A DNA stretch of 64,000 nucleotides from Cupriavidus sp. 2SB (GTDB taxonomy: Bacteria; Pseudomonadota; Gammaproteobacteria; Burkholderiales; Burkholderiaceae). The notes under the pieces are model-generated. The model had not been told where the DNA came from. It saw nothing but the letters and a program-made list of their open reading frames with translations, and did no database searches. Shown here piece after piece: positions 9,122 through 44,146 of the stretch. The position numbers and the translations under genes were made by a program. Every line of letters starts with the position of its first letter. Position 1 is the first letter of the stretch. The stretch covers positions 1-64,000 of the forward strand of contig NZ_SCMX01000011.1 in NCBI RefSeq assembly GCF_005503625.1, written 5' to 3'.

Positions 9122-9176
9122 ACCCATTGGGGCTATGTCCCCACATGGGTCATGGCTCCCATTACTTTGGAGCCAT
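9122..9176 (+). promoter_or_regulatory. Twin-hairpin leader with Shine-Dalgarno in stem
   Basis: Stem 1: ACCCA..GGGG paired with CCCC..TGGGT (9122-9150). Stem 2: ATGGCTCC (9152-9159) paired with GGAGCCAT (9169-9176). The GGAG ribosome-binding site of the next gene is inside stem 2, two bases before its ATG. Confidence 0.75.
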
Positions 9177-9177
9177 C

Positions 9178-9381
9178 ATGTCTCACATCGACGCCCCTGA
9201 AACTGCCGGTGCCATCGTTGCACTGGTCGTGATTCTTTTCACAGCGCTTTTCTTCATCGTTACGACGGTGAGCATACCGCTGCTGTACCTGCAACTTTCC
9301 ACGCTGACAGTCGCCGTTCTGGTGGTTGCTGTGTTGTGGGTCCTTGCCAGGTTCTCTCATCTGTCGGGCCAGCTGGTCTGA
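9178..9381 (+). CDS. Small membrane protein
   Basis: 67 residues from the ATG right after the twin-hairpin leader. Residues 10-57 are almost entirely hydrophobic (AGAIVALVVILFTALFFIV, then LTVAVLVVAVLWVLA) and predict two transmembrane helices. No family recognised. First gene of the operon headed by the 5' element at 9.07 kb. A strong GC-rich hairpin (9387-9416) follows the stop and may separate it from the next leader. Confidence 0.6.
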   Translation: MSHIDAPETAGAIVALVVILFTALFFIVTTVSIPLLYLQLSTLTVAVLVVAVLWVLARFSHLSGQLV

Positions 9382-9424
9382 CCATCGCCGCGCGCTGCCC
9401 ATCCGGCACGCGCGGCCCTCCACA

Positions 9425-9477
9425 CCCATCCGGGAAGCGTCCCGATGGGGCGTTTCCCGTCTCCCATTTAGGAAACG
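9425..9477 (+). promoter_or_regulatory. Twin-hairpin leader with Shine-Dalgarno in stem
   Basis: Stem 1: CCCAT.CGGGA with TCCCGATGGG (9425-9449). Stem 2: CGTTTCC (9451-9457) with GGAAACG (9471-9477), which masks the AGGAAA ribosome-binding site. Confidence 0.75.
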
Positions 9478-9479
9478 CA

Positions 9480-9959
9480 ATGCTCCGCCCCAAGACAATT
9501 GACATCGAAGTCGGGCCCGTCCCGGCCGAAGAATCGTGTGCGCAGGTTGGCCGCGACGACTACAACGAGCGCTCGCGACGTGAATGCGCTGTGTACATCC
9601 GGCAATTGCAGCGCGTCTTCAATTTCCCGGACGCGACCATCCTGAAGTTTGTTCGTCGCGGCTTCCCGCATGAACTCGGGCGGTACCACGAGGTGGTGGC
9701 AGTCATGACGGCAGAAGGTGCAGAAGTATTTGACGAAGACCGCTTGCCGCACGCTTGGGATCATGTCGCTCGCGCCGAACTGACGTGGTTGCGCCTTCAG
9801 CAGCAGTGGCGCGAGACAGTGCTTGCGCGGCCGTCGGCCATTGCCCTTGTCCCGGAGATATTCCGGGCGCAAGAGATTCCGGAATTCCCGAATCACCCTG
9901 TTGCGCAGTGGTGGGCTATGGGCTTTTCCCCCGCCGTGCCATCGCTCGGCTTGCACTGA
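9480..9959 (+). CDS. Hypothetical protein, distant paralogue of the gene at 7858
   Basis: 159 residues beginning MLRPKTIDIEVGPVP. The start is fixed by the leader immediately upstream. Residues about 45-105 align with the 7858 product in order and spacing (RVF.FP, LKF, EVVAV, AWDHVARAEL). No catalytic motif, signal or membrane segment. Function unknown. Confidence 0.6.
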   Translation: MLRPKTIDIEVGPVPAEESCAQVGRDDYNERSRRECAVYIRQLQRVFNFPDATILKFVRRGFPHELGRYHEVVAVMTAEGAEVFDEDRLPHAWDHVARAELTWLRLQQQWRETVLARPSAIALVPEIFRAQEIPEFPNHPVAQWWAMGFSPAVPSLGLH

Positions 9960-9972
9960 GCATCGCAATTTC

Positions 9973-10023
9973 CCCGCATGGGACCGAGTCCCTGCGGGTC
10001 GGTCCCGATATTCCTTCGAGACC
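9973..10023 (+). promoter_or_regulatory. Twin-hairpin leader (weaker second stem)
   Basis: Stem 1: CCCGCA.GGGA with TCCCTGCGGG (9973-9998). Stem 2 is short: GGTC (10001-10004) with GACC (10020-10023). Same layout as the other leaders. Confidence 0.5.
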
Positions 10024-10025
10024 AT

Positions 10026-10748
10026 ATGTACAACCAGTTGATCGGCCAGTTTCTGGCCGCGGAACACTTCAGCACGACCGATATGGATCGGGTTGCCAAG
10101 CTGGAGGCCACTCTGTTCCCCAATGCGGCGCGCCTCGCCTGCCGGCGTTCGAGTGAATCTCGGCTGCGGTACCGTCGTGCCTTCCTGAAGCGCCTTGCAG
10201 CAAACCTTGTCGACAAGGCGAGTACGCAGATCGGGGAGCGCGTCGACGAAACACGGGTCCAGTTGGATGGTCCCCGTAATGTCTGGCAGGTGATTGACGC
10301 CGGCCAGATTCCCGATCTCGACAAGCTCTGGCATGTCTTGGTTGCCTCAAAAGCTCAGCCGTTGCCTATCGAGCAGGCCGTAAGCGTGCTGCGAAGCGCC
10401 TTCGCGGATAACACGAACCTGAGCATGAGGCTGACGCGGCAACTCGGAATCCTGCGCCTTGCGGCTCCGTCCGAGCCGGCGGCCGGCCATACGCCCGGTA
10501 TGCGGTGGCTTTGTGCCGGCGCTGTCGACCGGGTTAACCTGGTTCTAACTGGGTTGGCCGTCTTCGCCAAACGCTCTGGCGAGCTGGCAATGGCCGCCTG
10601 CCTCAGTGAGTTTCGCGTCGACGCGCCGTTTGTATCTCCCCAGCGGCGCGCCTTCCCTGGTGTCGAGATCCGCCAGTTCAACGAGCAATGGGAGATCAGA
10701 TTGCACCGAGAGCTTGCCGAGCGCCTGGCGCAGTTCGTCGGCACCTGA
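10026..10748 (+). CDS. Hypothetical 240-residue protein
   Basis: Begins MYNQLIGQFLAAEHFSTTDM after its own leader hairpin. Helical composition, no membrane segment and no recognised motif. It sits in a row with the 9178 and 9480 genes and the methylase-like gene, each with its own twin hairpin but only one apparent promoter. Confidence 0.55.
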   Translation: MYNQLIGQFLAAEHFSTTDMDRVAKLEATLFPNAARLACRRSSESRLRYRRAFLKRLAANLVDKASTQIGERVDETRVQLDGPRNVWQVIDAGQIPDLDKLWHVLVASKAQPLPIEQAVSVLRSAFADNTNLSMRLTRQLGILRLAAPSEPAAGHTPGMRWLCAGAVDRVNLVLTGLAVFAKRSGELAMAACLSEFRVDAPFVSPQRRAFPGVEIRQFNEQWEIRLHRELAERLAQFVGT

Positions 10749-10768
10749 ACCCTTTTCTTCCACCCCGT

Positions 10769-10818
10769 CCGGGAACGTTCCCGGCAAGGGGGCGTTTCCG
10801 GATCCATTGATCCCAACG
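10769..10818 (+). promoter_or_regulatory. Twin-hairpin leader before a 24-codon ORF
   Basis: Stem 1: CCGGGAA-CG-TTCCCGG (10769-10784). Stem 2: GGATC-CATT-GATCC (10800-10813) nested in CGTT..AACG (10793-10818). It precedes the short ORF at 10821, not the methylase start itself. Confidence 0.55.
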
Positions 10819-10820
10819 AA

Positions 10821-10895
10821 ATGCCCCCAAATTCCATTCAATTCCGTTGCTGCAGTACTGCCGCGTACCCGTTTCTGCGTAGGCCGGGTCAATGA
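10821..10895 (+). CDS. 24-residue leader peptide, coupled to methylase-like gene
   Basis: A short frame (begins MPPNSIQF, ends RRPGQ) starts where the leader hairpins predict a start codon. Its TGA overlaps the ATG of the methylase-like gene (ATGA). This is the arrangement of a translated leader that controls re-initiation. The peptide contains two adjacent cysteines. No homologue recognised. Confidence 0.45.
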   Translation: MPPNSIQFRCCSTAAYPFLRRPGQ

Positions 10896-11818
10896 GCAAG
10901 GCCGCCAAACGCAAGTTCGAAGGCACGGCCAGCGACCCGCACAAGCAGCTGCTGTCGTTCTTCAAGGCCTTCGGCCACCGGCACTCGATGCACGAGGTCT
11001 TCTCCGACTTCGTCGAGTTGTCGGCGCTGACCATCAGCAATGCCGTCGATCGCCATCAGTTCGATGCGCGGGAGAAGCGTTACCTGGAAATCGTGAAGCG
11101 GTACGAGCGCGAGGATCTGGAGCGCTTCTCGCACATGCTGGGGGCCCTGACGCTGACATTCGAAGACCGGGTGCAGCAACTGGTGCCCCACGGCGACGGC
11201 CTGGCCGATGTGCTTGGCCAGACATACATGATGCTCGAACTCGGGAACGATCGGGCAGGGCAGTTCTTTACCCCGTACAGCGTCTCTCGCCTGATGGCCA
11301 GCATCAATATCGGCGACGGCAATCCGTACGTTGACCGGGACGGGTTCGTCACGATCAGCGAGCCGGCATGCGGTGCCGGTGGGATGGTGATCGCTTGCGC
11401 GGATGCACTTCATGACGCAGGCCGCAACTACCAGCAGACGATGCATGCGACCTGCATCGACATCGATCCAAGGTGCGTCCACATGGCGTACGTTCAATTG
11501 TCGCTCCTGAATATCCCCGCCATCGTCGTACACGGCAACGCGCTCTCCGTCGAGGCTTGGGGCACCTGGTTCACGCCGGCTCACATCCTCGGTGGTTGGG
11601 GCGCGAAGCTGCGGGTAAAGCGGTTCCGTGAGGCTATGGAATCGCTGACTCCGGAGTCCGTTGACACCGACGAATCCGCTGCCCCGTCGTTGCCGACTGG
11701 ATCGACTGACCTTGAGGTTGAATCCATTCTCCACGTGAGTGCAGATCCCGAGCAGGCGCGCTTAACCACACCGGCGATGCGGGTCTTCGTGCCAGATGAC
11801 CAGCTTGCGCTGTTCTGA
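10892..11818 (+). CDS. N-6 DNA methylase-like protein lacking the NPPY/F motif
   Basis: 308 residues. GQFFTPYSVSRLM (about residue 125) and EPACGAGGM (motif I, S-adenosylmethionine pocket, about 163) match HsdM-type N6-adenine methylases. The region where NPPF/Y (motif IV, catalytic) is expected instead reads HGNALSVEAWGTWFTP. I find no NPP(Y/F) or DPPY anywhere. The protein ends with a Ser/Thr/Asp-rich tail. It may bind the cofactor without methylating DNA, or use an unusual catalytic loop. It is coupled to the 24-codon leader ORF. Confidence 0.75.
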   Translation: MSKAAKRKFEGTASDPHKQLLSFFKAFGHRHSMHEVFSDFVELSALTISNAVDRHQFDAREKRYLEIVKRYEREDLERFSHMLGALTLTFEDRVQQLVPHGDGLADVLGQTYMMLELGNDRAGQFFTPYSVSRLMASINIGDGNPYVDRDGFVTISEPACGAGGMVIACADALHDAGRNYQQTMHATCIDIDPRCVHMAYVQLSLLNIPAIVVHGNALSVEAWGTWFTPAHILGGWGAKLRVKRFREAMESLTPESVDTDESAAPSLPTGSTDLEVESILHVSADPEQARLTTPAMRVFVPDDQLALF

Positions 11819-11886
11819 CGGCGAAAAGACGCCGAAATTGCCAACCTTTCGGGGTCATCGACCGGCCCACTAAGCCATAAGATGGT

Positions 11887-11962
11887 TTCCGTAGCGCCCC
11901 GCTACGGAACTCTCTCAAGATGGACCCGTTCTCCCCGCCCTCCTCGTGAGGGCTTTTTTTTT
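11887..11962 (+). terminator. Hairpin plus rho-independent terminator
   Basis: A 9-bp hairpin TTCCGTAGC-GCCCC-GCTACGGAA (11887-11909), then GCCCTC-CTCGT-GAGGGC followed by nine T (11937-11962). A 9-codon ORF (11920-11949) begins after the first hairpin and its stop falls inside the terminator stem. It could be an attenuator remnant. Nothing else was seen up to 12100. Confidence 0.75.
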
Positions 11963-12111
11963 GAAGCCGTGGGCGATTGCCGCAGATGCACCGGCAAGTC
12001 CAGAGGGTTAGGGTAATCCCCCATAAGCGGGGTGCAGGGCACGGCGAATCCGCCGATATTCAGATGCCGCGAATTGAAGGGTAGCGGCCAACGAAACATG
12101 GAGAAATTGTC

Positions 12112-13821: not shown

Positions 13822-13828
13822 GACCCCC

Positions 13829-13858
13829 GGGGCGGCAACAGCCGCCCCTTCGTTTTTT
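13829..13858 (+). terminator. Rho-independent terminator
   Basis: GGGGCGGC-AACA-GCCGCCCC followed by TTCGTTTTTT, 7 nt after the peptidase stop. Confidence 0.85.
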
Positions 13859-13867
13859 GGGATTGTC

Positions 13868-14176: not shown

Positions 14177-14318
14177 CTCGACTGGGAGAGCAATGAAATT
14201 CGAGGCGAAGCATTCCAATGCCTGTCCATCGCCTTTTCCGAGGACGCCAAGCAGGGAGCGCTCCGCGTTTTTCTCTCGTAACAAGTTCGAAATCGAGCAT
14301 ATTCCGAGATGGACAAGG

Positions 14319-15493: not shown

Positions 15494-15686
15494 ATGAGGA
15501 TAGCAACGAACTTTGTCTTGCTCGTAATCGCGCTGGCGATGTTCGCCTACGCCTGGAACATCCTGACGCAAAAGCGCCCGGCCGTTCAAGGTGCGCCTTG
15601 TATCGCGCAGCAAAGGGGTAAAAGCAACTGCCGACGGCACGCCGGTAGTGTGCCACCAAGATATGGGTTGGAAGCCCGCCCAGTAA
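15494..15686 (+). pseudogene. Small membrane or secreted protein gene, frameshifted
   Basis: From the ATG at 15494 (RBS AAGGAG) the frame encodes a hydrophobic helix (RIATNFVLLVIALAMFAYAW) and then loses protein-like character. The +1 frame continues well as KVRLVSRSKGVKATADG to WKPAQ and a stop at 15684. A single-base frameshift around 15575-15590 would explain both. It may also be a sequencing error. Confidence 0.4.
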
Positions 15687-17366: not shown

Positions 17367-17371
17367 CACGG

Positions 17372-17417
17372 CACCTACCGCGTCCTAGACGCATCGACCC
17401 CGCACCTCCTGGTGCCA
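17372..17417 (+). promoter_or_regulatory. Shared 5' RNA element, copy 2 (PRTRC operon)
   Basis: GCGTC-CTA-GACGC (17380-17392) followed by ATCGACCCC, then a small CACC..GGTG hairpin. This is the first transcribed structure of the PRTRC operon. Confidence 0.7.
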
Positions 17418-17474
17418 GCTTCTGCAGTACGGTGGCCGGCCAGCATAGCCTGGTAGTCCAACCTTCTATCCCCT

Positions 17475-17527
17475 CGGGAACCATGTTCCCGGTGCGGCAA
17501 CGGGTTCCCCTATTCTCGCGAGAACCC
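17475..17527 (+). promoter_or_regulatory. Twin-hairpin leader of PRTRC parB
   Basis: Stem 1: CGGGAAC-CAT-GTTCCCG (17475-17491). Stem 2: GGGTTC (17502-17507) with GAACCC (17522-17527), 3 nt before the ATG. It fixes the start at 17531. Confidence 0.7.
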
Positions 17528-17530
17528 ACA

Positions 17531-23443: not shown

Positions 23444-23486
23444 ACACCTCGCGCTTCCGGCGCATCGACCCGTGGCACTAGGCCAC
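23444..23486 (+). promoter_or_regulatory. Shared 5' RNA element, copy 3 (23.45 kb)
   Basis: GCGC-TTCCG-GCGC (23451-23463) followed by ATCGACC, then hairpin GTGGC-ACTAG-GCCAC (23472-23486). About 12 nt after the -10 box. Confidence 0.65.
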
Positions 23487-23501
23487 ACATTTCATTATCC
23501 C

Positions 23502-23548
23502 GTTGGGGCACTTGCCCTGGCGGAGTGCTCCATCCTCTTCGGAGCACT
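23502..23548 (+). promoter_or_regulatory. Twin-hairpin leader with Shine-Dalgarno in stem
   Basis: Stem 1: GTTGGGG with CCCTGGC, using G-T pairs (23502-23521). Stem 2: AGTGCTCC (23524-23531) with GGAGCACT (23541-23548), hiding GGAG. Confidence 0.75.
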
Positions 23549-23550: not shown

Positions 23551-24273
23551 ATGAGCATTTCCACCCCTCAAGTCCCGGCCCAGTCGGCCTTTCGTCGCAT
23601 TTTCGTGACGGGCCCCTGGCTGTCTGCTGGCGTTATCGCTACTGGTTATTGGAACGGCAAGCCGTGGCACACGCTGACATATCCCATGTTTAGTCGTGCG
23701 GATGTGCAGCGGCTTTGCGAGCTGTTGCCGGATCTAACCTTCAGTGAGTCGCGCAATGCGGTGCGGCACGTCGAAGGAAGCCGTACCGAATGGTTTGACG
23801 CCGAACCCCACATCGTCGACGGAAAGCTGATGGATCTCTACGCCGTCGGTTTCGGTTGGGGATGGCAGTTGGCGCGTCACGATACCGTCCCTGCCATTCA
23901 CGGGCAGTCGTTGCACGTGATGGTCCGAACGGCGGCACTCGAATGGATGCAAGCTCTGGCAGACGAGGATCACGTTGCGCTGTGTGCGTATGCGTCCTTC
24001 CGGTTGTCCGGCTATATCGAACAGCGCCTGGACTGCCGTCGTCGGCTGGACCTGTCTCGGTTCGATGCCGTGCTGGCCATTGCAAGCCAGCGGCTTCCGT
24101 TGCCGGGAGCGGTTCGGATTGCTGTGCAGTCCAGCGAATGGATTGCCGTTGTCGACGCGCTCACGTATCTCGCCGATGGCGAGGGATTCAATGCGTTGCC
24201 GCAGCAAGCGCGGCGCGAGCGAATCATCGAAGCGATGCTGGACCAACTGGCCCGCGAAGTCGGCGGCGTCTGA
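23551..24273 (+). CDS. Hypothetical 240-residue protein
   Basis: Begins MSISTPQVPAQSAFRRIFV directly after its leader. Aromatic-rich N-terminal half (VIATGYWNGKPWHTLTYPMF; YAVGFGWGWQLA) and helical C-terminal half. No named family, no signal or membrane segment. First gene of the unit headed by the element at 23.45 kb. Confidence 0.55.
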   Translation: MSISTPQVPAQSAFRRIFVTGPWLSAGVIATGYWNGKPWHTLTYPMFSRADVQRLCELLPDLTFSESRNAVRHVEGSRTEWFDAEPHIVDGKLMDLYAVGFGWGWQLARHDTVPAIHGQSLHVMVRTAALEWMQALADEDHVALCAYASFRLSGYIEQRLDCRRRLDLSRFDAVLAIASQRLPLPGAVRIAVQSSEWIAVVDALTYLADGEGFNALPQQARRERIIEAMLDQLAREVGGV

Positions 24274-24293
24274 GTTTCTAACCTTCTCTTTCA

Positions 24294-24347
24294 CCCATCG
24301 CGGGCACATCCCGCTGGGGGAGTGCTCCGCCCATCTCTAGGAGCACT
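24294..24347 (+). promoter_or_regulatory. Twin-hairpin leader with Shine-Dalgarno in stem
   Basis: Stem 1: CCCA..GCGGG with CCCGCTGGG (24294-24318). Stem 2: AGTGCTCC (24321-24328) with GGAGCACT (24340-24347), the same stem-2 sequence as the preceding gene. Confidence 0.75.
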
Positions 24348-24350
24348 TTC

Positions 24351-24689
24351 ATGCCTCAGATCACTCTTTCCCGCACGCAGGTCGCATCGCTCGTCGCCTT
24401 CTGCGATGCGGCTGGTTCGGACCAGTTTTTCATCGCGAAGGACCACGGTGCGTATGTCGGCTACAGCACGGGTGCCACGCCCGATAAGCAGTGCCTGTTC
24501 TATTTCAAGGGCTGCAATCCTGCGAAGGACGCCGATTTCTATGAAAACGCGCGCCGCAGTTTCGGTGGCGATGACTTTGGTGAGCACTTGCCGCTGGTCG
24601 ACTTGCGCAAGGCGCTGGAAATCCCTGCGACTCAGAAGGTCCGCATCACCGTGAACGCAACGTCAATCCGCCTGGACTCGTTCGCCTGA
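24351..24689 (+). CDS. DUF3085-like protein
   Basis: 112 residues. The segment FYFKGCNPAKDADFYENAR followed by SFGGDDFGEHLPL matches the DUF3085 pattern (..GCNP...D.W/Y.....FGGDDG.E). The family is small, mostly on plasmids and integrative elements, and of unknown function. A conserved upstream RNA structure has been named after DUF3085 in comparative surveys. Whether it is the leader seen here needs a covariance-model search. Confidence 0.6.
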   Translation: MPQITLSRTQVASLVAFCDAAGSDQFFIAKDHGAYVGYSTGATPDKQCLFYFKGCNPAKDADFYENARRSFGGDDFGEHLPLVDLRKALEIPATQKVRITVNATSIRLDSFA

Positions 24690-25557: not shown

Positions 25558-25604
25558 ACCTACCGCGTCTCAGACGCATCGACACTTCCGGTTGTATAGC
25601 CGGA
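25558..25604 (+). promoter_or_regulatory. Shared 5' RNA element, copy 4 (25.56 kb)
   Basis: GCGTC-TCA-GACGC (25565-25577) followed by ATCGACA, then hairpin TCCGG..CCGGA (25587-25604). It starts about 11 nt after the -10 box. Confidence 0.7.
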
Positions 25605-25619: not shown

Positions 25620-25677
25620 CCCACCTACGGGCCTTCCTGCCCGTGGGCATGTTGGCCCTTTTTTCATTTGAGGCCAT
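25620..25677 (+). promoter_or_regulatory. Twin-hairpin leader
   Basis: Stem 1: CCCA..ACGGG with CCCGTGGG (25620-25647). Stem 2: TGGCC (25653-25657) with GGCCA (25672-25676), covering the GAGG ribosome-binding site. Confidence 0.7.
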
Positions 25678-25678
25678 C

Positions 25679-26193: not shown

Positions 26194-26238
26194 CCCCGCA
26201 CGGAGTCCCCGTGCGGGGCTCCGTGCGTCCATCGGAGC
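26194..26238 (+). promoter_or_regulatory. Twin-hairpin leader with Shine-Dalgarno in stem
   Basis: Stem 1: CCCCGCAC with GTGCGGGG (26194-26218), extended inward by GG/CC. Stem 2: GCTCC (26218-26222) with GGAGC (26234-26238). Confidence 0.75.
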
Positions 26239-26243
26239 TATTT

Positions 26244-26706: not shown

Positions 26707-26752
26707 CACCCGCGTCACTGACGCATCGACCCATGTCCGGCATCGTCCGGAC
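26707..26752 (+). promoter_or_regulatory. Shared 5' RNA element, copy 5 (26.71 kb)
   Basis: GCGTC-ACT-GACGC (26712-26724), ATCGACCC, then hairpin GTCCGG-CATCGT-CCGGAC (26735-26752). No clear -10 box is visible; the element directly follows a terminator-like hairpin and a TTTT run. Confidence 0.65.
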
Positions 26753-26764
26753 CACCAACCCAGC

Positions 26765-26815
26765 TGGGACACTCGTCCCATGGGGAAGGGATGTCCCGTC
26801 TATATCGAGGCTCCC
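26765..26815 (+). promoter_or_regulatory. Twin-hairpin leader (weak second stem)
   Basis: Stem 1: TGGGAC-ACTC-GTCCCA (26765-26780). Stem 2 is weak: GGGA (26788-26791) with TCCC (26812-26815), enclosing the GAGG ribosome-binding site. Confidence 0.5.
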
Positions 26816-27852: not shown

Positions 27853-27897
27853 CCCACACGGGCGCCGTCCCGTCGGGACGTCTCCCATCCAAGGATG
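27853..27897 (+). promoter_or_regulatory. Twin-hairpin leader with Shine-Dalgarno in stem
   Basis: Stem 1: CCC..ACGGG with CCCGT.GGG (27853-27877). Stem 2: CATCC (27886-27890) with GGATG (27893-27897), including the AAGGA site. No promoter was seen between the terminator and this leader. Confidence 0.7.
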
Positions 27898-27904
27898 CAT
27901 CCCG

Positions 27905-28297
27905 ATGAACAGTACCGTCTATGGCGCAGGCCTGGCCAGCTACCCGGCTGGCGTCCTGCTGCGCGCCAGCGTCTATTCGACCAACCTTCGCGCAGCCATT
28001 TCGTTTGTCTGCGCTGATGACGACATGCCCTACGGCGTGCTGTCGGTGAATCTGCCTGATGCCACGCTTGCCGACGACGAGATCCTCGTCACGGACGATT
28101 GGATCCTGCCCCTCGACCTCAAGGCTGCCTTGCTTGAAACCGGCAAGTTCGTGCAAACCGGCCGTTGGAACCAGGTCGGCTTTGACCGGGGCGAAGTCTG
28201 GCGCATTGTCGATGCCGAAATCCTTACGGAAGTCGCGGCGGCACGTGTTGTGGCCAGTCGTGGCAAAGCCGCGCGGCGCTCGGCCGTCGTCGCCTGA
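27905..28297 (+). CDS. DUF4313-like protein, first of a tandem pair
   Basis: 130 residues. YGVLSVNLPDATLADDEILV, then WILPLDLKAALLETG, then TGRWNQVGFDRGEVWRI follow the layout of DUF4313-type phage/plasmid proteins (YGtLTvNL...deafvdt...L...G...tGr...gF). The next gene encodes a diverged copy. Function unknown. Confidence 0.55.
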   Translation: MNSTVYGAGLASYPAGVLLRASVYSTNLRAAISFVCADDDMPYGVLSVNLPDATLADDEILVTDDWILPLDLKAALLETGKFVQTGRWNQVGFDRGEVWRIVDAEILTEVAAARVVASRGKAARRSAVVA

Positions 28298-28311
28298 CCG
28301 ATCCCTTCAAC

Positions 28312-28359
28312 CCTTGCGGGCCCATCCCGCAAGGCGGTGGGCCTATGGGAGATTCCCAT
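28312..28359 (+). promoter_or_regulatory. Twin-hairpin leader enclosing the start codon
   Basis: Stem 1: CCTTGCGGG-CCCAT-CCCGCAAGG (28312-28334), a perfect 9-bp stem. Stem 2: ATGGGA (28345-28350) with TCCCAT (28354-28359). The right arm contains the first bases of the start codon at 28358. Confidence 0.7.
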
Positions 28360-28711: not shown

Positions 28712-28730
28712 GCCATCCCTTCCAACCCTA

Positions 28731-28770
28731 TCGGGGCATGTCCCCGAAGGGGCATGCTCCGTCCTGGAGC
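28731..28770 (+). promoter_or_regulatory. Twin-hairpin leader with Shine-Dalgarno in stem
   Basis: Stem 1: TCGGGG-CATGT-CCCCGA (28731-28747). Stem 2: GCTCC-GTCCT-GGAGC (28756-28770), with GGAG in the stem and the ATG 4 nt later. Confidence 0.78.
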
Positions 28771-28774
28771 CACT

Positions 28775-30483: not shown

Positions 30484-30516
30484 TACCCGCGTCTCCGACG
30501 CATCGACCCAAACGCC
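30484..30516 (+). promoter_or_regulatory. Shared 5' RNA element, copy 6 (30.49 kb)
   Basis: GCGTC-TCC-GACGC (30489-30501), ATCGACCC, then a CCGGC..GCCGG-type hairpin. It is preceded by hairpin ACTGAA-ACCG-TTCAGT and a TTTT run, with no clear -10 box. The 30363-30480 stretch holds no gene I can support. Confidence 0.65.
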
Positions 30517-30542: not shown

Positions 30543-30617
30543 CCCACAGGGACCGCTCCCTGATGGGACGGCTCCGTGGGCATCTCCACGATTCCGATGT
30601 ACCTCACCTTGCTGTAG
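30543..30617 (+). other. Twin-hairpin leader followed by a six-codon ORF
   Basis: Stem 1: CAGGGA-CCGC-TCCCTG within CCC..GGG (30543-30567). Stem 2: CGTGG-GCATCT-CCACG (30575-30590). The expected start codon (30597) opens a frame of only six codons ending at 30617. This may be a leader peptide, or a leader whose gene has been deleted. The rest up to 30786 shows no convincing gene. Confidence 0.5.
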
Positions 30618-30786: not shown

Positions 30787-33700
30787 ATGTCCCATCTCGT
30801 TCAAACGATGGCTTACGCTGGCGCAACCCCCTGGCACGGCCTGGGTAACCGGTTGGCCGAGCATCAGCCGCTCGAAGTCTGGGCCGAAGCCGCAGGCATG
30901 AACTGGCGCATCGAGGAGACCGACGTGATGTTCCGCGTTGGCACGCATGACCTCGATCCGATCAAGTCGTTCCCTGAGCAGAAGGTGCTGTACCGATCCG
31001 ACAACGGCAAGCCGCTGTCGACGGTATCGCAGCGGTACCAGGTTGTCCAACCCGCCGAGATCCTAGAATTTGTGCGACGTGAAGTCGCTTGAGTAATTGT
31101 CCCAACGGGGAAACCTGTTGAGGGACCTGATGTTCCGTCATCAGTAGCCTACCGGCACATGCAGAACCGGTAACGGTCCTGTTTGAAGCTGCCGGGACAA
31201 TGTAGTTGGGCCTTCGGGCCGCATCGACGCCGCGAGGCGAGGTGTCACCTGCGAGCATCAATGCGGGTGCAACGCTAGGCTGGGTGGTACGACCAACGCA
31301 AGTGAACTGCCAATAAACGTCGTTAGGATCAACAAGCCAAAGATGCTGACAGGCTTGAACCAAAAGGTGTGCGGTCGGTTATCTCCCTAAATTCTGGGGG
31401 TACACGGACATAAAGGCCGCCGGCGGAAAGGCAGGGTCTAACCCATCTCGTTACTCACGCGAAACACGGTAAGCCCGTATCACCGCCTCTCGGGGCAGGC
31501 GGACCGCAAGGAATGCTGTTGGTGGTGCGGGTATAGGAGTGTGGAAAAAGCGAATGCCGTCCGGTAATAGGGCGGATAGGGGTTGAGCCGCGAGGCAACA
31601 TTACCTCACGCGAAAGCGGGCAGACTTCCACATGGTCTTTCTCTACGAGAAAACTTGTCTAACCTTCTTCAGGAGGGAATTGCAGATGACTACGCAAGAA
31701 GCTACTTGCGCGGGTGCGCCCTCTCGCGAACCGGTACCATGGCACAGCATCGACTGGGCCAGGTGTCACCGTGAAGTGCGAAGGCTCCAAGCGCGTATCG
31801 TAAAGGCAGCACGGGAAGGAAAGCACGGCAGGGTGAAAGCCTTGCAATGGATTCTTACCCACTCGTTTAGCGGCAAGGCATTGGCCGTTAGACGCGTTAC
31901 CGAAAACCAAGGCAAAAAGACTCCGGGCGTGGACGGTCTCACGTGGTCTACTCCGGAGGCCAAGTCTCAAGCGATGTTGTCACTGAAGCGGAGCGGGTAT
32001 CGTCCCAAACCGCTGAGGCGTGTTTATATTGCCAAAGCTAATGGGAAGATGCGACCGCTGGGTATCCCGACCATGAAAGACAGGGCGATGCAGGCGCTTT
32101 ACCTGCTTGCTCTTGAACCCGTGGCTGAGACTACAGCGGATCGGCGCTCATTTGGGTTCCGACCTGGGAGAGCCACTGCTGATGCAATCGAACAGTGCTT
32201 TACGGCACTATCGAGGAAGGCTGCAGCACAGTGGGTACTCGAAGGCGACATCAAGGGCTGCTTCGACAACATCAGCCATGACTGGCTGTTGGGCAACGTC
32301 CCCACGGATCGAAAGGTCCTCAAGAGGTGGCTCAGCGCTGGTTATATGGAAGATCGACAACTTTTCCCATCGGAAGCTGGTACCCCGCAAGGGGGCATCA
32401 TTTCGCCAACCCTGGCGAACCTCGTCTTGGACGGGCTGGAAGCCAAACTGGATAGCGCTTTCGGAAGAAAGCGGTACGCCAACGGTGTACAGACTCGCCT
32501 GATGGTCAACTACGTGCGATATGCGGACGACTTTATCGTGACGGGACGCTCCAAGGAGCTACTGGAACAAGAGGTCATGCCGATCATTGAGGAATTCATG
32601 CGGGAACGGGGGCTCACACTCTCGCCCGAGAAGACCAAAATCACGCACATCAGCGAGGGCTTTGATTTTCTAGGTCAAAACATCCGCAAGTACAACGGCA
32701 AGTTGTTAATCATGCCGTCGAAAGCAAATGTTGAGACCTTCTTGGGAAAGGTGCGCTCTGCGGTCAAAAGGAGCAAGGCTCTGGAACAGGAACGTCTGAT
32801 CCGGATTCTCAACCCGATGATTCAAGGCTGGGCGAACTATCACCAGCATGTCGTTGCGAAAGCGACGTTCGCTCGTGTCGATCATGAGATTTGGCGTGTG
32901 TTGTGGCAGTGGGCCGTCCGTCGGCATCCGCAGAAAGGTAGTGGTTGGATCAAGGACCGCTATTTTCGCTCTGTGGACACCCGAAGCTGGGTGTTCGCGG
33001 CGGCAACAGGTGAAAGATTCCCTGACGGGAAGCCGATCCTGAAGTCGTTGCGAAAAGCAGCCGACACGCCCATTCGGCGACACCTGCCGATCAAGTTGGA
33101 AGCAAATCCGTTCGATCCGAAGTGGGAGACGTACTTTGAGGACCGAGTGAGCCTCAAGATGCAGAACTCATTGAGGGGCAGGAAGAAGCTGATCAACCTC
33201 TGGTTGGAGCAGGATCGTCATTGTCCAATCTGTCGCGAATCGATTACGCAGGAGTCACGGTGGCACGTTCACCACATCGTTCGGCGGGTCGACGGCGGAA
33301 AGGATGGACGTACCAATCTCATCATGGTGCATCCGAACTGCCATAGCCAGATTCACGTTCTTGGTCTGACGGTAGTGAAGCCGGTTCGCGAAAGCGGGCT
33401 TTGAAAGGCTTGAGCCGTATGAGGGGAAACTCTCACGTACGGTTCTTAGGGGGGGATGGGACCAGCAATGGCCTGTCTCTACCCGACTATAGGGACCTTG
33501 TTCAGGTAGGCGGATACCAGTTGGAAACGGCTGGTGTGCTGAAGGAGGGCCGCAAGCTCTGGGCGCTCGCGCGCACAGGACAATCGGCCACGCTCAAGGG
33601 CGGTGACGAGGTGCGCGGCTACCTGCTGCTGGCCACGGCCTGCGACGGTACGCTGGCCACCACTGCTCAGTTCACCTCGGTTCGCGTGGTGTGCAACAAC

Positions 33701-36724: not shown

Positions 36725-36769
36725 CACACCTCGCGTCTCTGACGCATCGACCCCGACTCCTCGTGAGTC
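36725..36769 (+). promoter_or_regulatory. Shared 5' RNA element, copy 7 (36.73 kb)
   Basis: GCGTC-TCT-GACGC (36733-36745), ATCGACCCC, then hairpin GACTC-CTCGT-GAGTC (36755-36769). A weak -10 (CAGAAT) lies 11 nt upstream. Confidence 0.7.
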
Positions 36770-37208
36770 CATCTGTTGAATCAAGTCGTGCTTCTGTGCA
36801 CGCGCCGACTGGTTGGCTACCAGTGTGGATACTTCTTGTGCTAAGTGTTTTCGCCGAACACTTCCCCCTCATCAGCTCGTAATACGCGTTCCTTGCTGTG
36901 CCTCTTCATGAGCGCACGCAGGACACCGTTCGAGCCTGGGACCATGTGGAGCTCTCTCAAAGGCCCCTCCTAGGCAGAACGGCAGACGTCGAGCCGATCC
37001 GTGAACCTGCGGCCGAACCTGTGGGTTCGCGAAAAGGGTTGTTGTGCAGCGTGACCATGCTGCACGAGGGCGACTTTACGTCCTCAACATAGAGCAGCGC
37101 GCATTCGTGCGCCGCTCCCTCGATGCCACGCCCCCGGAAGGGGCGTGGCGTTGCAGGTTCCTGTCTAACAAAGCTCGCTGCCGGCGCAAACCGGGGCGGG
37201 CTTTTTTT
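36725..37208 (+). ncRNA. Candidate structured non-coding transcript or long leader
   Basis: About 480 nt without a convincing coding frame, starting at the shared 5' element and ending at a T-tailed 11-bp hairpin (37173-37208). Inside are clean hairpins: AAGTGTT..AACACTT (36843-36863), CGAACC..GGTTCG (37014-37029), GTGCAGC..GCTGCAC (37044-37065) and CCACGCCCC-CGGAA-GGGGCGTGG (37126-37148). It could be a regulatory RNA, or a terminator-controlled leader for the genes from 37246 on. A 64-codon frame (36898-37092) exists but looks non-coding. Confidence 0.5.
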
Positions 37209-38822: not shown

Positions 38823-38849
38823 CTATCGCCAGCCTTGTGCCGGCAGTTG

Positions 38850-38880: not shown

Positions 38881-38918
38881 CTTGCCGCATGCCGGCACAT
38901 TCCCTTGGAGGTTCCACA

Positions 38919-40376: not shown

Positions 40377-40415
40377 CGATACGCCAATCCCTAGAACATT
40401 GCGAAAGCCATGTTC

Positions 40416-40450
40416 CGACAGCCTTTGAGGTTGTCGAAAACTGGTTTTAC
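40416..40450 (+). terminator. Terminator-like hairpin abutting leader element 8
   Basis: CGACA.CCT-TTG-AGG.TGTCG followed by AAAACTGGTTTT, directly before the 5' element, as at the 26.7-kb and 30.5-kb copies. Confidence 0.55.
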
Positions 40451-40474
40451 CCGCGTCCCTGACGCATCGACCCC
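40448..40474 (+). promoter_or_regulatory. Shared 5' RNA element, copy 8 (40.45 kb)
   Basis: GCGTC-CCT-GACGC (40453-40465) followed by ATCGACCCC. No second small hairpin is obvious in this copy. Confidence 0.65.
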
Positions 40475-40503
40475 GCAGTATCCATTTCTTTTCTATCTAC
40501 CCA

Positions 40504-40549
40504 GACGGGTGCTTCCCGTCCGGGCGCACTCCGTCCGACTCTGGAGTGC
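40504..40549 (+). promoter_or_regulatory. Twin-hairpin leader with Shine-Dalgarno in stem
   Basis: Stem 1: GACGGG-TGCTT-CCCGTC (40504-40520). Stem 2: GCACTCC (40526-40532) with GGAGTGC (40543-40549), hiding GGAG. Confidence 0.78.
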
Positions 40550-40554
40550 TCAAC

Positions 40555-41070
40555 ATGATTCTCTACCCGGCTGGTCCCCAATGGCTCTTCATTGAAGAGA
40601 CCTTTATCAACCGCTCGGACATGGCCAAGCGCCTTTGCGAGCAGCACGGCTTTACGCAGTGCATGATGTATGAGCCGTTCGGCCCAGGCCGCGGCGCTGT
40701 GATCGCCAAGCGCGACCACATGCTGGTGATGGCCTTGGGTGAGGCGGGTGGCAACACCTTCTTTGCCGTGGCGCCGTCCAAGGAACTGCAGGAATTGATC
40801 TGGTCGTTCTCCAACGGCCTGGCATCACAGTGGAGCGAGCTGGAACTGCGAGCCCTCACCGGCCATCAGGACTGGGACGCCGTGATGAAGCTCGCAGGCA
40901 AGCAATTTTCAACAGCGCGTCGCTCCGTCGAACGTGCGGTCGCCGGTAAGCCTGAGCAAGATGCACCTTCGCTGCCCGATGTGCCGCAATGGGACGAGAG
41001 CGCGATGGAAGTACCGTCCGACTATCTCCATTCTTTCAACGGCTCGGAGGTGTCCGAATGCGCCCACTGA
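40555..41070 (+). CDS. Hypothetical protein coupled to the SbcC-like gene
   Basis: 171 residues beginning MILYPAGPQWLFIEETFINR. The N-terminal 80 residues form an alpha/beta domain and the C-terminal part is helical and acidic. It overlaps the SbcC-like start by 13 nt, so production of the two is linked. It lies between the SbcD-like and SbcC-like genes, where an adaptor would be plausible. No family recognised. Confidence 0.55.
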   Translation: MILYPAGPQWLFIEETFINRSDMAKRLCEQHGFTQCMMYEPFGPGRGAVIAKRDHMLVMALGEAGGNTFFAVAPSKELQELIWSFSNGLASQWSELELRALTGHQDWDAVMKLAGKQFSTARRSVERAVAGKPEQDAPSLPDVPQWDESAMEVPSDYLHSFNGSEVSECAH

Positions 41071-43382
41071 AGCTGACGCTTGCCGGATTCCACGGGATCC
41101 GCGATGGTATGCATCGTGATAGCGTCACCGTCGACCTGTCGACGCTGCCCGGCGGCCTGATCGCCCTTGTCGGCCCCAACGGGGCAGGGAAGACGACGAT
41201 CATGGATAACCTGCATCCGTTTCCTATCATGCCGAGCCACGCGAGCAAGATGTCGGCCGACGCGTTCTCGTACTGGGACCATCTCTGCGCCCCGCGCGCA
41301 GAGAAGGACCTGGAATGGGAGCATGGCGGCAAGACGTACCGCTCCGCGTTCGCTTTTCGTAACCCTGGCAAGAGCCGGAAGGCCGAGTATTACCTGTTTG
41401 AGAAGCACGCCGATGGCGATTGGAAGCCGGTGCAACTGGCCGACGGCACGCTGTCGGACGGCAAGGCGGACACCTACAACCGGTGTCTCGAAACCGTCTT
41501 GGGGTCTCTCGAGGCGTTCTTCACCAGCGTTTTTTCTGCTCAAAACAGGCGGCCGCTCGCCAGCTATCAACCTAGCGAGATCAAGAAGCTGCTCGCCGAG
41601 CTGCTCGGGATCGATCACTTGCGCGACTTGTCGGCGAAGGCAGGCGAGGTCGCCAAGCTGCTTACCCGCTCGCTCGACACCCTGCAGCGCGACGTGCTGA
41701 CCCTCACGGGCAAGCGCGATCGGGCAGTGGTCGTGGCGCGCGAGATCCGGCAGATGGGTGAAGGCCTGGACGCCGAGCGAAATGCACGTGACAGCGAAAC
41801 AGCGAAGGGTGCGAAGCTGCTGCAGGAGCGCGCGACGCTGGCGGCGAAGCAGGCCGCCAATGCCGGTACCGAAGCGCGGTTGCGGGAACTGAACCAGCGC
41901 AAGGGCGAGTTGGACCAGCGTGCAACATCGCTGACCAACGATGAACAGGTCGCCGCCGGACGTGTTACGACACGCCGGCGCGATTTGGATCGGCAAGTGG
42001 CAGGCCATCGTGCGGTATTGGCGGAGGCCGCAGACATTGAGGCGGCATCCGGCGAACGAGACGTTCTGCAACTGGCTATTGGCCGGAGGCAGGACGAAAT
42101 TGCCAGCCAGCGCGCGATCGTGGAGAAGCTCGACGCCGTTCAGGTCGAGCACGCGGCGCTGAGTACAGAGCTCAAGGGCCTGGAGCAGCAAGGCGTTGCA
42201 GGTGCGAAGTTGGCCGATTCGTTGAAGCTGCAAGCCGAGGTCATCGAAGCGGTCCCATGCCGTGATGATCCCATGCACGCCACGTGTCCGTTACTGGCAC
42301 ACGCTCGTAATGCCAAGGTGAAGCTCGGAGAGCAGGTGGTGTCGGTGAAAGCACTGCGCGAAAGCTATCGAAAGAAGCTGGAGCAGGTGCAATCGATGCA
42401 AGGTTCGCTATCTGAGCGTGCCACGGCACGCGCTGCACTGTCGGCATTGGAGGCTCACCTGGTTCGTGATCAGCAACTGCTGCAGCGACTCACGGCAATG
42501 GCTGCCAAGAAGCCGTTGCTGGACGCCGCGCGTGAAGGACTGGCGCAGGCCGAACGCGATCTGACGGCATTGAGCGAGGAGGATGCGTCACGCATTGAGC
42601 GCCACAAGCGCGATATCGCGGACGTGCAATCCCAAGTCGAAGCGGTGCGTCGGGAACTGGCGACGCTGGCCACGGAGGACGTGACCGGCATACTGGCCCA
42701 CATGGACCGCCAGATTGCCGCCAGCCGGGAGGCTGTCGCTGCGATTGCCGGCCGGATTGAAGCGTTGATTCGGCAGGAGAGCATGCTCGTGTCCGAGCGC
42801 GAGCGTCTGGATGTTGAGCTTGTCGGCATGCCGAACCTCGAAGCCAAGGCGCAGGCGCTGTCCGACCAGATTGCGCAGTGGAAGCTGCTCGCGAAGGGCC
42901 TGGGCAACGATGGCGTGATCGCGCTGTCTATCGATGACGCGGGCCCGGCGATCACTCAGATCGTCAATGACTTGCTCCTGGCCTGCTACGGACCGCGATT
43001 CACCATCGCGATCCAGACACAGACAGCGCTGGCCAGCGGCGAACTGCGCGAGGGCTTCTCTATCAACGTGATCGACGCTGACAACGACACCACGAAGGAG
43101 TTTGGCGTGATGTCGGGTGGGCAAAAGGTCTGGATCAACGAGTGCCTGACGCGCGGAATCGCCCTGTATCGGGCGCAGGATGCGCAGCAGCCTTTCCAGA
43201 CGTTGTTCACCGATGAAGCGGATGGCCCATTGGATCCGGAGCGCAAGCGCGCCTTCATGAAGATGAAGCGCGAGGTGCTGCGGGTCGGCGGTTATGAGCG
43301 GGAGTACTTTATCTCGCAGACGCCAGACCTGGTGGACGACGCCGATGGCGTCATCGATGTCGTTGCGCTGGCGCTGCAGTAG
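41058..43382 (+). CDS. sbcC: SbcC/Rad50-like AAA+ ATPase
   Basis: 774 residues from the ATG at 41058 (MRPLKLTLAGFHGI). Walker A ALVGPNGAGKTTIMDN lies near residue 37. A long coiled coil occupies about residues 180-600 (rich in Glu, Arg, Ala, Leu). Near its middle CRDDPMHATCPLL takes the place of the zinc hook, but the spacing is C-x8-C instead of CxxC. The signature FGVMSGGQKVWINE and Walker B TLFTDEADGPLDPER close the ATPase. Works with the SbcD-like nuclease on DNA ends. Confidence 0.85.
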   Translation: MRPLKLTLAGFHGIRDGMHRDSVTVDLSTLPGGLIALVGPNGAGKTTIMDNLHPFPIMPSHASKMSADAFSYWDHLCAPRAEKDLEWEHGGKTYRSAFAFRNPGKSRKAEYYLFEKHADGDWKPVQLADGTLSDGKADTYNRCLETVLGSLEAFFTSVFSAQNRRPLASYQPSEIKKLLAELLGIDHLRDLSAKAGEVAKLLTRSLDTLQRDVLTLTGKRDRAVVVAREIRQMGEGLDAERNARDSETAKGAKLLQERATLAAKQAANAGTEARLRELNQRKGELDQRATSLTNDEQVAAGRVTTRRRDLDRQVAGHRAVLAEAADIEAASGERDVLQLAIGRRQDEIASQRAIVEKLDAVQVEHAALSTELKGLEQQGVAGAKLADSLKLQAEVIEAVPCRDDPMHATCPLLAHARNAKVKLGEQVVSVKALRESYRKKLEQVQSMQGSLSERATARAALSALEAHLVRDQQLLQRLTAMAAKKPLLDAAREGLAQAERDLTALSEEDASRIERHKRDIADVQSQVEAVRRELATLATEDVTGILAHMDRQIAASREAVAAIAGRIEALIRQESMLVSERERLDVELVGMPNLEAKAQALSDQIAQWKLLAKGLGNDGVIALSIDDAGPAITQIVNDLLLACYGPRFTIAIQTQTALASGELREGFSINVIDADNDTTKEFGVMSGGQKVWINECLTRGIALYRAQDAQQPFQTLFTDEADGPLDPERKRAFMKMKREVLRVGGYEREYFISQTPDLVDDADGVIDVVALALQ

Positions 43383-43405
43383 GTCCGGCGCCATTCGTTA
43401 ACCAC

Positions 43406-43441
43406 ATGCCCGCTTCCCGAAAGGGAGCGGGCATTTCTTTT
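43406..43441 (+). terminator. Rho-independent terminator
   Basis: GCCCGCT.CCC-GAAA-GGG.AGCGGGC followed by ATTTCTTTTG. Confidence 0.85.
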
Positions 43442-43448
43442 GTCTCCA

Positions 43449-43661
43449 ATGTCTAAGGAATGTCTTGAAGATGTCTTCGCCCAACTCCGGGCCGAGGGCA
43501 TCGAGAGCTACTGCCAACAGATCTGCGGCGGCGGCTACTGCGGCACTGGACCAGTTTGCCAGTACGGCATCGATGCCAAGACTGAAATGCCGGTTGGCTT
43601 TTATCCCCCTTCCGAAGGGCTGCTCTTGAGCGCCCTCGATCCGTTAATCATTCAGGCATAG
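43449..43661 (+). CDS. Small cysteine-rich protein
   Basis: 70 residues from the ATG at 43449. Cysteine spacing C-x3-C-x4-C-x5-C (CQQICGGGYCGTGPVC) suggests a metal or disulphide knot. No signal peptide. Only a weak RBS lies in front and the ATG follows the terminator closely. No family recognised. Confidence 0.5.
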   Translation: MSKECLEDVFAQLRAEGIESYCQQICGGGYCGTGPVCQYGIDAKTEMPVGFYPPSEGLLLSALDPLIIQA

Positions 43662-43679
43662 CCCAGTTACACCGAAAAC

Positions 43680-43964
43680 ATGTCTAAGGTATTCGTCACG
43701 GCCGAAGAGGCTGAAAAGTTGCTGCCGCGGCGCCGGAAGATCCACACGTTTATCCGCATCTTTGGATGGCAGGGTGACAACATGGATCGCGAGGCGCTGC
43801 TAAAAGTGTTCCAGTCTGCCAAGAACGTTGAGGTCTCCCAAGACGCCGCCTGCTTCGATCACTACCTTGCGGTAAAGATCGACGGCATGGTGACGTACAT
43901 CGAGACCAACCTGAAGGCGCTGGCCAAGTTCGGTCTGCTGCCTCCCGGCCGCAAAGCCGCCTGA
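43680..43964 (+). CDS. Hypothetical 94-residue protein
   Basis: Begins MSKVFVTAEEAEKLLPRRRK. Alpha/beta, soluble, with KIHTFIRIFGWQGDNMDREA in the first half. It lies 18 nt after the small cysteine-rich protein gene and is probably co-transcribed with it. No family recognised. Confidence 0.5.
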   Translation: MSKVFVTAEEAEKLLPRRRKIHTFIRIFGWQGDNMDREALLKVFQSAKNVEVSQDAACFDHYLAVKIDGMVTYIETNLKALAKFGLLPPGRKAA

Positions 43965-44001
43965 CGGACTTGGCGGAATCCAAGTTCGTTGCAATACCTA
44001 C

Positions 44002-44044
44002 ATGCCTATGCATCCCATCCGGGGCGCATAGGCATTTTCCTTTT
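44002..44044 (+). terminator. Rho-independent terminator
   Basis: ATGCCTATGC (44002-44011) with GCATAGGCAT (44026-44035), then TTTCCTTTT. Confidence 0.85.
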
Positions 44045-44099
44045 CGCTTCCGCGATGTTCTGTGACGACGAGACGCCGTCGGTCGACACGCTATTTCAA

Positions 44100-44146
44100 C
44101 CCAACGGGACCAGTGCCCGTTGGGTGCTGGTCCTTATCGAGGACCA
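44100..44146 (+). promoter_or_regulatory. Twin-hairpin leader with Shine-Dalgarno in stem
   Basis: Stem 1: CCCAACGGG-ACCAGTG-CCCGTTGGG (44100-44124), perfect 9 bp. Stem 2: TGGTCCT-TATCG-AGGACCA (44128-44146), with AGGA in the stem and the ATG 2 nt later. This is one of the clearest examples. Confidence 0.82.

Follow-up and report, generated by a model that had tools for sequence, protein, structure and literature searches.

Cupriavidus sp. 2SB has a genome of 6.98 Mb, in which contig NZ_SCMX01000011.1 spans 119,110 bases; positions 1 to 64,000 of that contig are termed the window in what follows. They carry a PRTRC plasmid backbone, with ParB, alpha-helical, E2-like, JAB and ThiF proteins recognized in Pfam and NCBIfam scans. 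Family scans also identify a DUF3085 protein, a recombination-directionality-factor-like protein and a PAPS-reductase-like protein, and give weak matches for SbcD/SbcC-like proteins. Our subject is a set of 16 leaders in this region, each placing two consecutive hairpins before a start codon, the second hairpin carrying the Shine–Dalgarno (SD) sequence.

A tblastn search with the 516 amino acid (aa) protein encoded from ATG 28775 returned 48 plasmid records (Cupriavidus 19, Burkholderia 13, Paraburkholderia 9, Caballeronia 4 and three others). A protein search in 369 genomes of the class returned its own genome and one weak match. Seventeen plasmid loci from the 48, pMOL28 and pHG1 among them, serve as the relative set, and with the window make 18 loci. 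An excerpt of PMC2864759 describes a backbone common to pMOL28, pHG1 and pRALTA, and states that such plasmids bear metal resistance, hydrogen oxidation or symbiosis traits.

The first-pass annotation of this DNA had placed twin hairpins before twelve ATGs and weaker versions before four more (10026, 10821, 26816 and 30597); folding with hand-cut segments finds the layout at all 16. Hairpin 1 is a nested C/G hairpin, whose G-run plus loop we term segment B; D is the left arm of hairpin 2 and E its SD arm. B is complementary to D, so that D is able to pair with either B or E, a feature absent from that annotation. An automatic energy filter requires at most −11 kcal/mol for hairpin 1, −9 for B:D and −7.5 for D:E. 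The leaders are as follows.

9123..9176 (+): leader of ATG 9178 (67 aa open reading frame, ORF); hairpin 1 9123-9149, B 9129-9138, D 9152-9160, E 9169-9176.
9425..9478 (+): leader of ATG 9480; hairpin 1 9425-9449, B 9431-9440, D 9450-9459, E 9470-9478.
9973..10025 (+): leader of ATG 10026, one of the weaker sites, passes the filter; hairpin 1 9973-9998, B 9980-9989, D 9999-10008, E 10016-10025.
10763..10820 (+): leader of ATG 10821, which opens a 24-codon upstream ORF (uORF) that overlaps the start of the N6-methylase gene (10892); B:D is good and D:E poor, and the filter rejects it.
17470..17528 (+): leader of ATG 17531 (PRTRC ParB); hairpin 1 17470-17497, B 17475-17487, D 17500-17510, E 17518-17528.
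23499..23548 (+): leader of ATG 23551; hairpin 1 23499-23523, B 23505-23514, D 23524-23534, E 23540-23548.
24294..24350 (+): leader of ATG 24351 (DUF3085); hairpin 1 24294-24319, B 24300-24309, D 24320-24330, E 24339-24350.
25624..25678 (+): leader of ATG 25679 (glycine-zipper protein); hairpin 1 25624-25647, B 25628-25639, D 25650-25660, E 25670-25678.
26194..26243 (+): leader of ATG 26244; hairpin 1 26194-26218, B 26199-26207, D 26217-26227, E 26233-26243; fails the filter, which cuts segment B short there.
26759..26815 (+): leader of ATG 26816, one of the weaker sites, passes the filter; hairpin 1 26759-26785, B 26765-26776, D 26788-26798, E 26807-26815.
27853..27903 (+): leader of ATG 27905; hairpin 1 27853-27877; B:D and D:E both weak, fails the filter.
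28311..28357 (+): leader of ATG 28358; hairpin 1 28311-28334, B 28317-28325, D 28335-28345, E 28346-28357; D:E at the limit of the filter.
28726..28774 (+): leader of ATG 28775 (516 aa protein); hairpin 1 28726-28752, B 28732-28741, D 28751-28761, E 28765-28774.
30543..30596 (+): leader of ATG 30597 (6-codon mini-ORF, MYLTLL); fails the filter.
40500..40549 (+): leader of ATG 40555; hairpin 1 40500-40524, B 40505-40514, D 40525-40535, E 40542-40549.
44100..44147 (+): leader of ATG 44148 (PAPS-reductase-like protein); hairpin 1 44100-44124, B 44105-44115, D 44125-44135, E 44139-44147.

In all 16 hand-cut leaders segment E ends 0-5 nucleotides (nt) before the ATG. The form CCC..GGG..CCC..GGG, which the annotation gave for hairpin 1, is matched exactly by some leaders and approximately by the rest: the ending is GCGG or GGCGG in 17531 and 23551, 25679 starts with CCT, and the first GGG of 26244 is GGA. 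Two clean hairpins do not result everywhere when folding is unconstrained: the exceptions are 9480, 26244 and 28775, where a helix of B with D is preferred, and at 27905 and 28358, where another fold takes the place of hairpin 2. A strict twin-hairpin descriptor found eight instances on the plus strand, all at ATGs already named, and 12 on the minus strand, mostly complements of the same first hairpins.

Both complementarities are specific to the individual gene. Among the 16 hand-cut leaders, cognate B:D duplexes average −13.4 kcal/mol and non-cognate ones −7.9 kcal/mol, with none of 200,000 re-pairings as strong; for D:E the means are −10.3 and −6.2 kcal/mol, again with 0/200,000. The control pairing B:E has no such specificity (11,440/200,000 re-pairings as strong). 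The leader of 23551 may serve as an example, with B GGGGCACU, D AGUGCUCC and E GGAGCACU. Since the hand cuts were made after the pattern had been seen, we repeated the test with automatically cut segments, which gave 163 candidates in the 18 loci, some of them plainly false. For the 148 candidates outside the window (17 loci, false ones included) 0/5,000 permutations matched the real pairing for B:D and 0/5,000 for D:E, and both values recur for the 43 candidates from Burkholderia and Paraburkholderia only. Permutations within single loci gave, out of 20,000, 827 for B:D at locus L014 (four candidates) and 310 at L023, and for D:E 1,633 at L014, 877 at L021, 497 at L019 and 423 at L013. The same pattern, spelled with other letters, is visible in the leaders of the relatives.

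The energy filter was applied to 516 listed starts, comprising plus-strand coding sequences from the annotation tables, our own picks in the window (one of them a base off, 30788 for the true ATG 30787) and three added match starts where the annotation begins later. It passes 112 of these in the 18 loci and none of 2,580 dinucleotide shuffles, which bears out the proposal that a whole gene set stands under one layout. Among other ATGs 27/17,448 pass, five of the 27 sitting 3-33 nt downstream of listed starts. Seventeen of the 18 loci have 3 to 12 passing genes, and L023 has one. In the window 12 of 27 listed starts pass, namely 10 of the 12 strong sites and two of the four weak ones: 10026 and 26816 hold their place, and 10821 and 30597 do not. 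Besides these two (30597 lies outside the 27 and was tested in a scan of all starts) the filter misses 26244 and 27905. That scan, of every ATG and GTG on both strands, passes 16/3,934 in the window, four of them away from the named sites, 5/3,481 in the rest of the contig and 50/22,885 on the other contigs of the genome.

Farther away, none of the listed starts passes on the PRTRC plasmids of Pelobacter, Sphingobium and Rhodanobacter; the PRTRC plasmid of the gammaproteobacterium Methylomonas (L033) has a single passing leader (5539) among 22 listed starts. With every ATG and GTG included, these four loci together give 4/4,842. A model of the D:E pairs only (R1), built from 18 rows of which five are window leaders, makes 13 matches at an E-value of at most 1 in the window, the contig rest and 21 other contigs, all of them in the window and two on the minus strand; it misses 17531, 25679, 26244, 10821 and 30597. 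At an E-value of at most 0.001 it makes six matches in the window's own genome, all in the window. Twenty of 35 further genomes from this genus also have matches, as does one of 24 from elsewhere in the order; this spread fits a mobile, plasmid-borne feature.

In the 112 filter-passing leaders the loop of hairpin 1 has 3-8 nt of variable letters, and what is shared is the C/G frame together with a pyrimidine tract ahead of it (74% pyrimidine at −16 to −3). An SD core, sought in the last 14 nt, was recognisable in 104 leaders, 101 of which have it at a spacing of 5-9 nt to the start. At least three of its four bases are predicted to be paired in the D:E duplex in 89/104, so the sequestered SD sequence of the first-pass annotation is supported as a prediction.

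Orthologs were compared by swapping B/D or D/E partners between plasmids within one gene group, permutations that ignore shared descent; those of the 148 candidates are less affected by it, being made between different genes of one plasmid. For the orthologs of gene 28775 (17 loci) none of 20,000 permutations equalled the real pairing, for B:D or for D:E, and the same holds for gene 25679 (15 of 16 orthologs, the finder having missed one). The B/D pair of the 28775 leader reads GGGGCAUGU/GCAUGCUCCG in the window, GGGGCACGU/CGUGCUCCG in C. necator NH9 and GGGGCAACUG/UGGUUGCCCCU in B. ambifaria. Also significant, again out of 20,000, are D:E in the ParB group (9), D:E in the 23551 group (268) and B:D in the 40555 group (326).

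When the window leaders and three ortholog groups were aligned with MAFFT, B and D slipped out of register in places; covariation was therefore assessed by permutation and on 18 chosen leaders. These were hand-picked for similar geometry rather than drawn at random from the 112, and several rows are mutual orthologs. RNAalifold returned one helix from them, B:D. Its cells are paired in 89.5% of cases against 74.6% in shuffles, 18 cells have double-sided changes against 5.4, and the covariation score is 0.468 against 0.216, each with 0/500 shuffles reaching the real value; in register, the helix beats all six slid versions. A strand of hairpin 1 complementary to the left arm of hairpin 2 thus emerges from permutations, RNAalifold and alignment counts alike, in support of the earlier suggestion that stems 1 and 2 rearrange. 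The two helices B:D and D:E share D and are mutually exclusive, with the permutations and the B:D counts behind them, and this is alternative SD pairing, a known principle. At the level of sequence we regard the complementarities, their gene-specificity and their conservation as shown statistically.

The alignment also bears on whether these are DNA rather than RNA structures. In a ParB/PRTRC plasmid, palindromes might be protein sites or single-stranded-DNA promoters used in conjugation. One B:D position is G.U in 12 of the 18 leaders, D's U fitting the A of the SD sequence and B offering G; this speaks for RNA over a DNA palindrome, and makes B:D often a wobble copy of D:E. The structures are moreover tied in position to start codons, and the letters vary gene by gene, unlike those of a protein site. 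We consider a DNA-level role very improbable.

Similarity of B to E could also stem from a duplication of the hairpins, which would then protect mRNA ends, insulate starts or mark processing. The leaders do precede internal operon genes as well as first genes, as such functions would allow. Old similarity should decay, however, yet B and D still match with different letters across genes and plasmids; hairpin 2 also ends at the start codon, with the SD spacing kept. This explanation seems to us improbable.

We propose instead that each leader would act as a cis-acting translational switch made of the consecutive strands A, B, C, D and E. The OFF fold would have C paired with A and B, as hairpin 1, and the SD-carrying E paired with D; in the ON fold, B would pair with D, breaking hairpin 1 and leaving the SD arm largely single-stranded. 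As B competes with E for D, B imitates E.

Full leaders favour a fold that lacks B:D in 98/112 cases (median 6.2 kcal/mol); the predicted equilibrium agrees with the earlier claim of a default against the SD-freeing fold. For RNA cut off right behind D, the preference goes to B:D in 74/112 (median −1.3 kcal/mol). Both preferences occur together in 60/112 leaders against 59/746 non-cognate chimeras. An earlier comparison, of nascent B:D with hairpin 1 alone (B:D lower in 98/104), was unfair to other folds and is superseded by the 74/112 comparison. In a looser set of 155 candidates, 6.1 of 10 nucleotides of the SD region are unpaired when B:D is forced, up from 3.5; the median difference of ON minus OFF is 4.1 kcal/mol, with 78 candidates within 5 kcal/mol and ON lower in 46. 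While D is made and E is not yet, the folds would be nearly balanced, with B:D slightly favoured in most leaders. A newly made mRNA would thus be open briefly, and would close once E appears and hairpin 1 re-forms.

We give a probability of roughly 70% to the leaders being translational switches of the pMOL28/pHG1/Burkholderia group of PRTRC plasmids, predicted to be off at equilibrium and open while B:D holds. From the folding models we infer that the OFF fold blocks translation and the B:D fold allows it, B:D existing chiefly on nascent RNA.

Several results tell against this interpretation. In the energetics, the median nascent preference of −1.3 kcal/mol lies within the error of the energy model; 38 of the 112 leaders never prefer B:D, and in 14 B:D wins in the full leader too. 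Unconstrained folding of the full leader gives a median probability of 0.00 for B:D and of 0.25 for an unpaired SD core (104 leaders). In the window, cognate B:D is not good for 27905, where it ranks 14th of 16, or for 30597, where it ranks 9th; in D:E 10821 ranks 15th of 16, 27905 and 28358 12th, 30597 7th and 28775 6th. The Comamonadaceae locus L023 is without a D:E signal (8,355/20,000). Among ortholog groups, B:D is not significant for ParB (13,918/20,000) and 23551 (12,047/20,000), where B and D hardly vary, and values out of 20,000 for 26816 (B:D 1,307, D:E 5,499) and for D:E of 40555 (1,781) are hardly or not significant. On the 18-leader alignment, B:D has four pairs with double-sided change against 2.7 in shuffles and 12 further pair types against 10.3, each reached by 82/500. 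D:E is weak there, with 74.2% paired against 70.3% (5/500), covariation at 8/500 and double-sided pairs at 194/500, and a version slid by +1 covaries more; these weak counts are at least partly due to sides out of register.

A structure whose SD sequence is mostly paired at the predicted equilibrium might also be an RNA thermometer or ion sensor, in which the SD hairpin melts with temperature and hairpin 1 merely tunes its stability. Such a device has no need of gene-specific B:D complementarity, and no thermometer family is among the 11 Rfam matches up to an E-value of 10 in window positions 8500-46500. We rate it slightly less probable than the hairpin duplication.

If the leaders are switches, the question is what sets them. 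Our tentative first choice, ranked slightly above an external factor, is a co-transcriptional timer, in which the SD mimic in hairpin 1 would hold the anti-SD strand on the nascent mRNA until the transcript closes itself. A factor opening hairpin 1 comes a close second, and each of the two is less than an even bet. The strongest form of the timer would be a plasmid-wide programme: a self-coded three-strand timer on each of as many as a dozen genes or more, with every mRNA translatable only while young and no regulator involved; this we hold to be doubtful. Were it true, the timer would be a self-limiting mode of expression across the PRTRC backbone of Burkholderiales megaplasmids.

The first-pass annotation had invoked a common factor, and a plasmid or host factor (an RNA-binding protein or small RNA) might indeed set the same two folds by acting on the pyrimidine tract, segment A and the stem of hairpin 1. 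One layout before many genes and a shared pyrimidine-rich tract would suit it. The G-run of B and the C-run of C, though, follow from SD complementarity, which leaves only the outer stem and the tract in need of another cause, and the predicted energetics allow a switch without any factor. Pfam shows no RNA-binding family in 14 leader-gene products, nor NCBIfam in 10 proteins, other plasmid and host proteins being outside these scans. A small-RNA candidate exists in the sbcD RNA (RF01757), which lies in the window downstream of one copy of a 5'-element that we term hpA.

9070..9091 (+): hpA, GCGC/GCGC stem, then GCATCGACC; a promoter-like TTGCCC/TACTAT precedes it (by eye).
17378..17400 (+): hpA, GCGTCnnnGACGCATCGACCC.
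23449..23471 (+): hpA, GCGC/GCGC stem.
25563..25584 (+): hpA, GCATCGACA variant.
26710..26732 (+): hpA, element of the 5' untranslated region (UTR).
30487..30509 (+): hpA, precedes the mini-ORF leader.
36731..36753 (+): hpA, about 250 nt upstream of the sbcD RNA, with no leader after it.
37006..37160 (+): sbcD RNA (RF01757), 150.7 bits.
40451..40473 (+): hpA, 5'-UTR element.

Every one of the 12 replicons or genomes searched, namely 11 plasmid records and the genome of the window, has one copy of the sbcD RNA, which would suit a common factor; loci L018-L023 were outside the search. Its conserved GGGUUG looked complementary to CAACCC, and it was considered as a trans-acting factor. Its complementarity to segment A, the conserved 5' part of the leaders, was compared in 12-nt windows, with leaders whose hairpin 1 is at most −12 kcal/mol; in six plasmids 78, 46, 46, 52, 83 and 32 of 150 random plasmid segments equalled it. 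The only candidate tested was no better at this contact site than random segments, no factor was identified, and the common factor of the annotation is left unsupported. Another RNA bearing the complement of the leader consensus (GGGTTGAAAG, one mismatch allowed) was also sought: the window has five matches against 3.1 expected, and 25/100 shuffles reach five. Three of them are complements of leaders (28304, 28719 and 44093), the others are at 15665 (+) and 25420 (−), and none is convincing. We think a shared factor possible and rather unlikely.

The hpA element occurs as GCGTCnnnGACGCATCGACC or in the GCGC-stem form, in eight copies at 9083, 17391, 23462, 25576, 26723, 30500, 36744 and 40464. 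Seven lie 89-140 nt upstream of the ATG of a leader, and one upstream of the sbcD RNA. With up to one mismatch allowed, the window has 21 instances of the motif GCATCGACCC, those at coding sites among them, where 8.3 would be expected. By eye, the stems are GCGTC/GACGC or GCGC/GCGC, several copies are followed by a second small hairpin of variable letters, and a TTGnnn/TAnnnT pair stands just before several, which suggests that hpA may form the first hairpin of the mRNA. The distance from the sbcD RNA to the 28775 ortholog is about 21-23 kb on two Burkholderia/Paraburkholderia plasmids and 8 kb otherwise.

Rfam 15 at its gathering thresholds matched no leader in the window or in four of the relatives (L006, L007, L022 and L012). 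A looser search of window positions 8500-46500 and 24150-24450 (E-value up to 10) added only weak sub-threshold matches besides the sbcD RNA and a group II intron; one, to Streptomyces-metH, overlaps the 24351 leader (E-value 2.9, 14.5 bits against a threshold of 50). Titles and opening lines of abstracts in the literature searched on PRTRC plasmids, the sbcD RNA and SD switches hold no description of these leaders.

Among known systems, translational riboswitch expression platforms similarly set a sequestor against an anti-sequestor around the SD sequence. The leaders here have no aptamer-sized conserved domain, and in the 112 the 3-8 nt loop of hairpin 1 varies in length and letters, unlike the conserved aptamer domain of a metabolite riboswitch. 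In erm and cat translational attenuators, too, alternative hairpins decide SD pairing, but those take their fold from a ribosome that stalls on a leader peptide; here many unrelated genes carry different letters, and no common leader peptide was noticed by eye, where no systematic scan was made. The 24-codon and 6-codon ORFs lie 3' of their leaders. The phage MS2 maturation gene and hok mRNA share with our proposal a transient nascent helix that delays the SD-closing fold; they are single genes, whereas the layout here is repeated within 17 of the 18 loci, its presumed kinetics being read from energies. The pseudoknot of the IncB/IncI-alpha RepZ leader, also on plasmids, pairs a hairpin-loop strand beside an SD-sequestering structure and so frees the SD sequence. 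There the gene is one for replication, and a leader peptide and an antisense RNA belong to the system; here B:D would break hairpin 1, going beyond loop pairing.

A 2017 list of 224 candidate RNAs reportedly includes a 'DUF3085 RNA motif', whose name places it ahead of DUF3085 genes, the position that the 24351 leader has. That leader has no credible Rfam match up to an E-value of 10; the motif may overlap part of our finding. To our knowledge, alternative folds that hide the SD sequence are known from individual genes, and a plasmid-wide set with private three-strand codes is a new variant. Cupriavidus, Burkholderia and Paraburkholderia all repeat this fold logic, with private letters, at many genes of one plasmid region. 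Should the switch work, it would mark a translational programme on these plasmids and tie together genes of which most have no known function; with orthologs counted, it would also supply more than a hundred natural variants against which models of RNA folding order could be tried.

Two of the leaders precede short ORFs. A uORF of 24-25 codons, ending in ..AYPFLR.. plus a few residues, overlaps the N6-methylase start with its stop (ATGA or TTGA) in 4/4 loci inspected: window 10821-10895, and before 7893 in L004, 3683 in L007 and 1442 in L018. This overlap suggests translational coupling. A mini-ORF of 6-7 codons (MYLTLL, MQSTLL, MHLQFLL and others), at 30597-30617 in the window, lies upstream of a DUF932 gene in 7/7 loci inspected; the other six have it at 21821 in L004, 21826 in L005, 21819 in L007, 17828 in L008, 17837 in L009 and 17833 in L010. 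The 5' element and a leader of the hairpin-1 type precede it, the leader that in the window fails the energy filter. In the window a group II intron with a reverse transcriptase (31126-33487) follows the start of the DUF932 gene (ATG 30787), which, identified by gene order in the relatives, it seems to interrupt.

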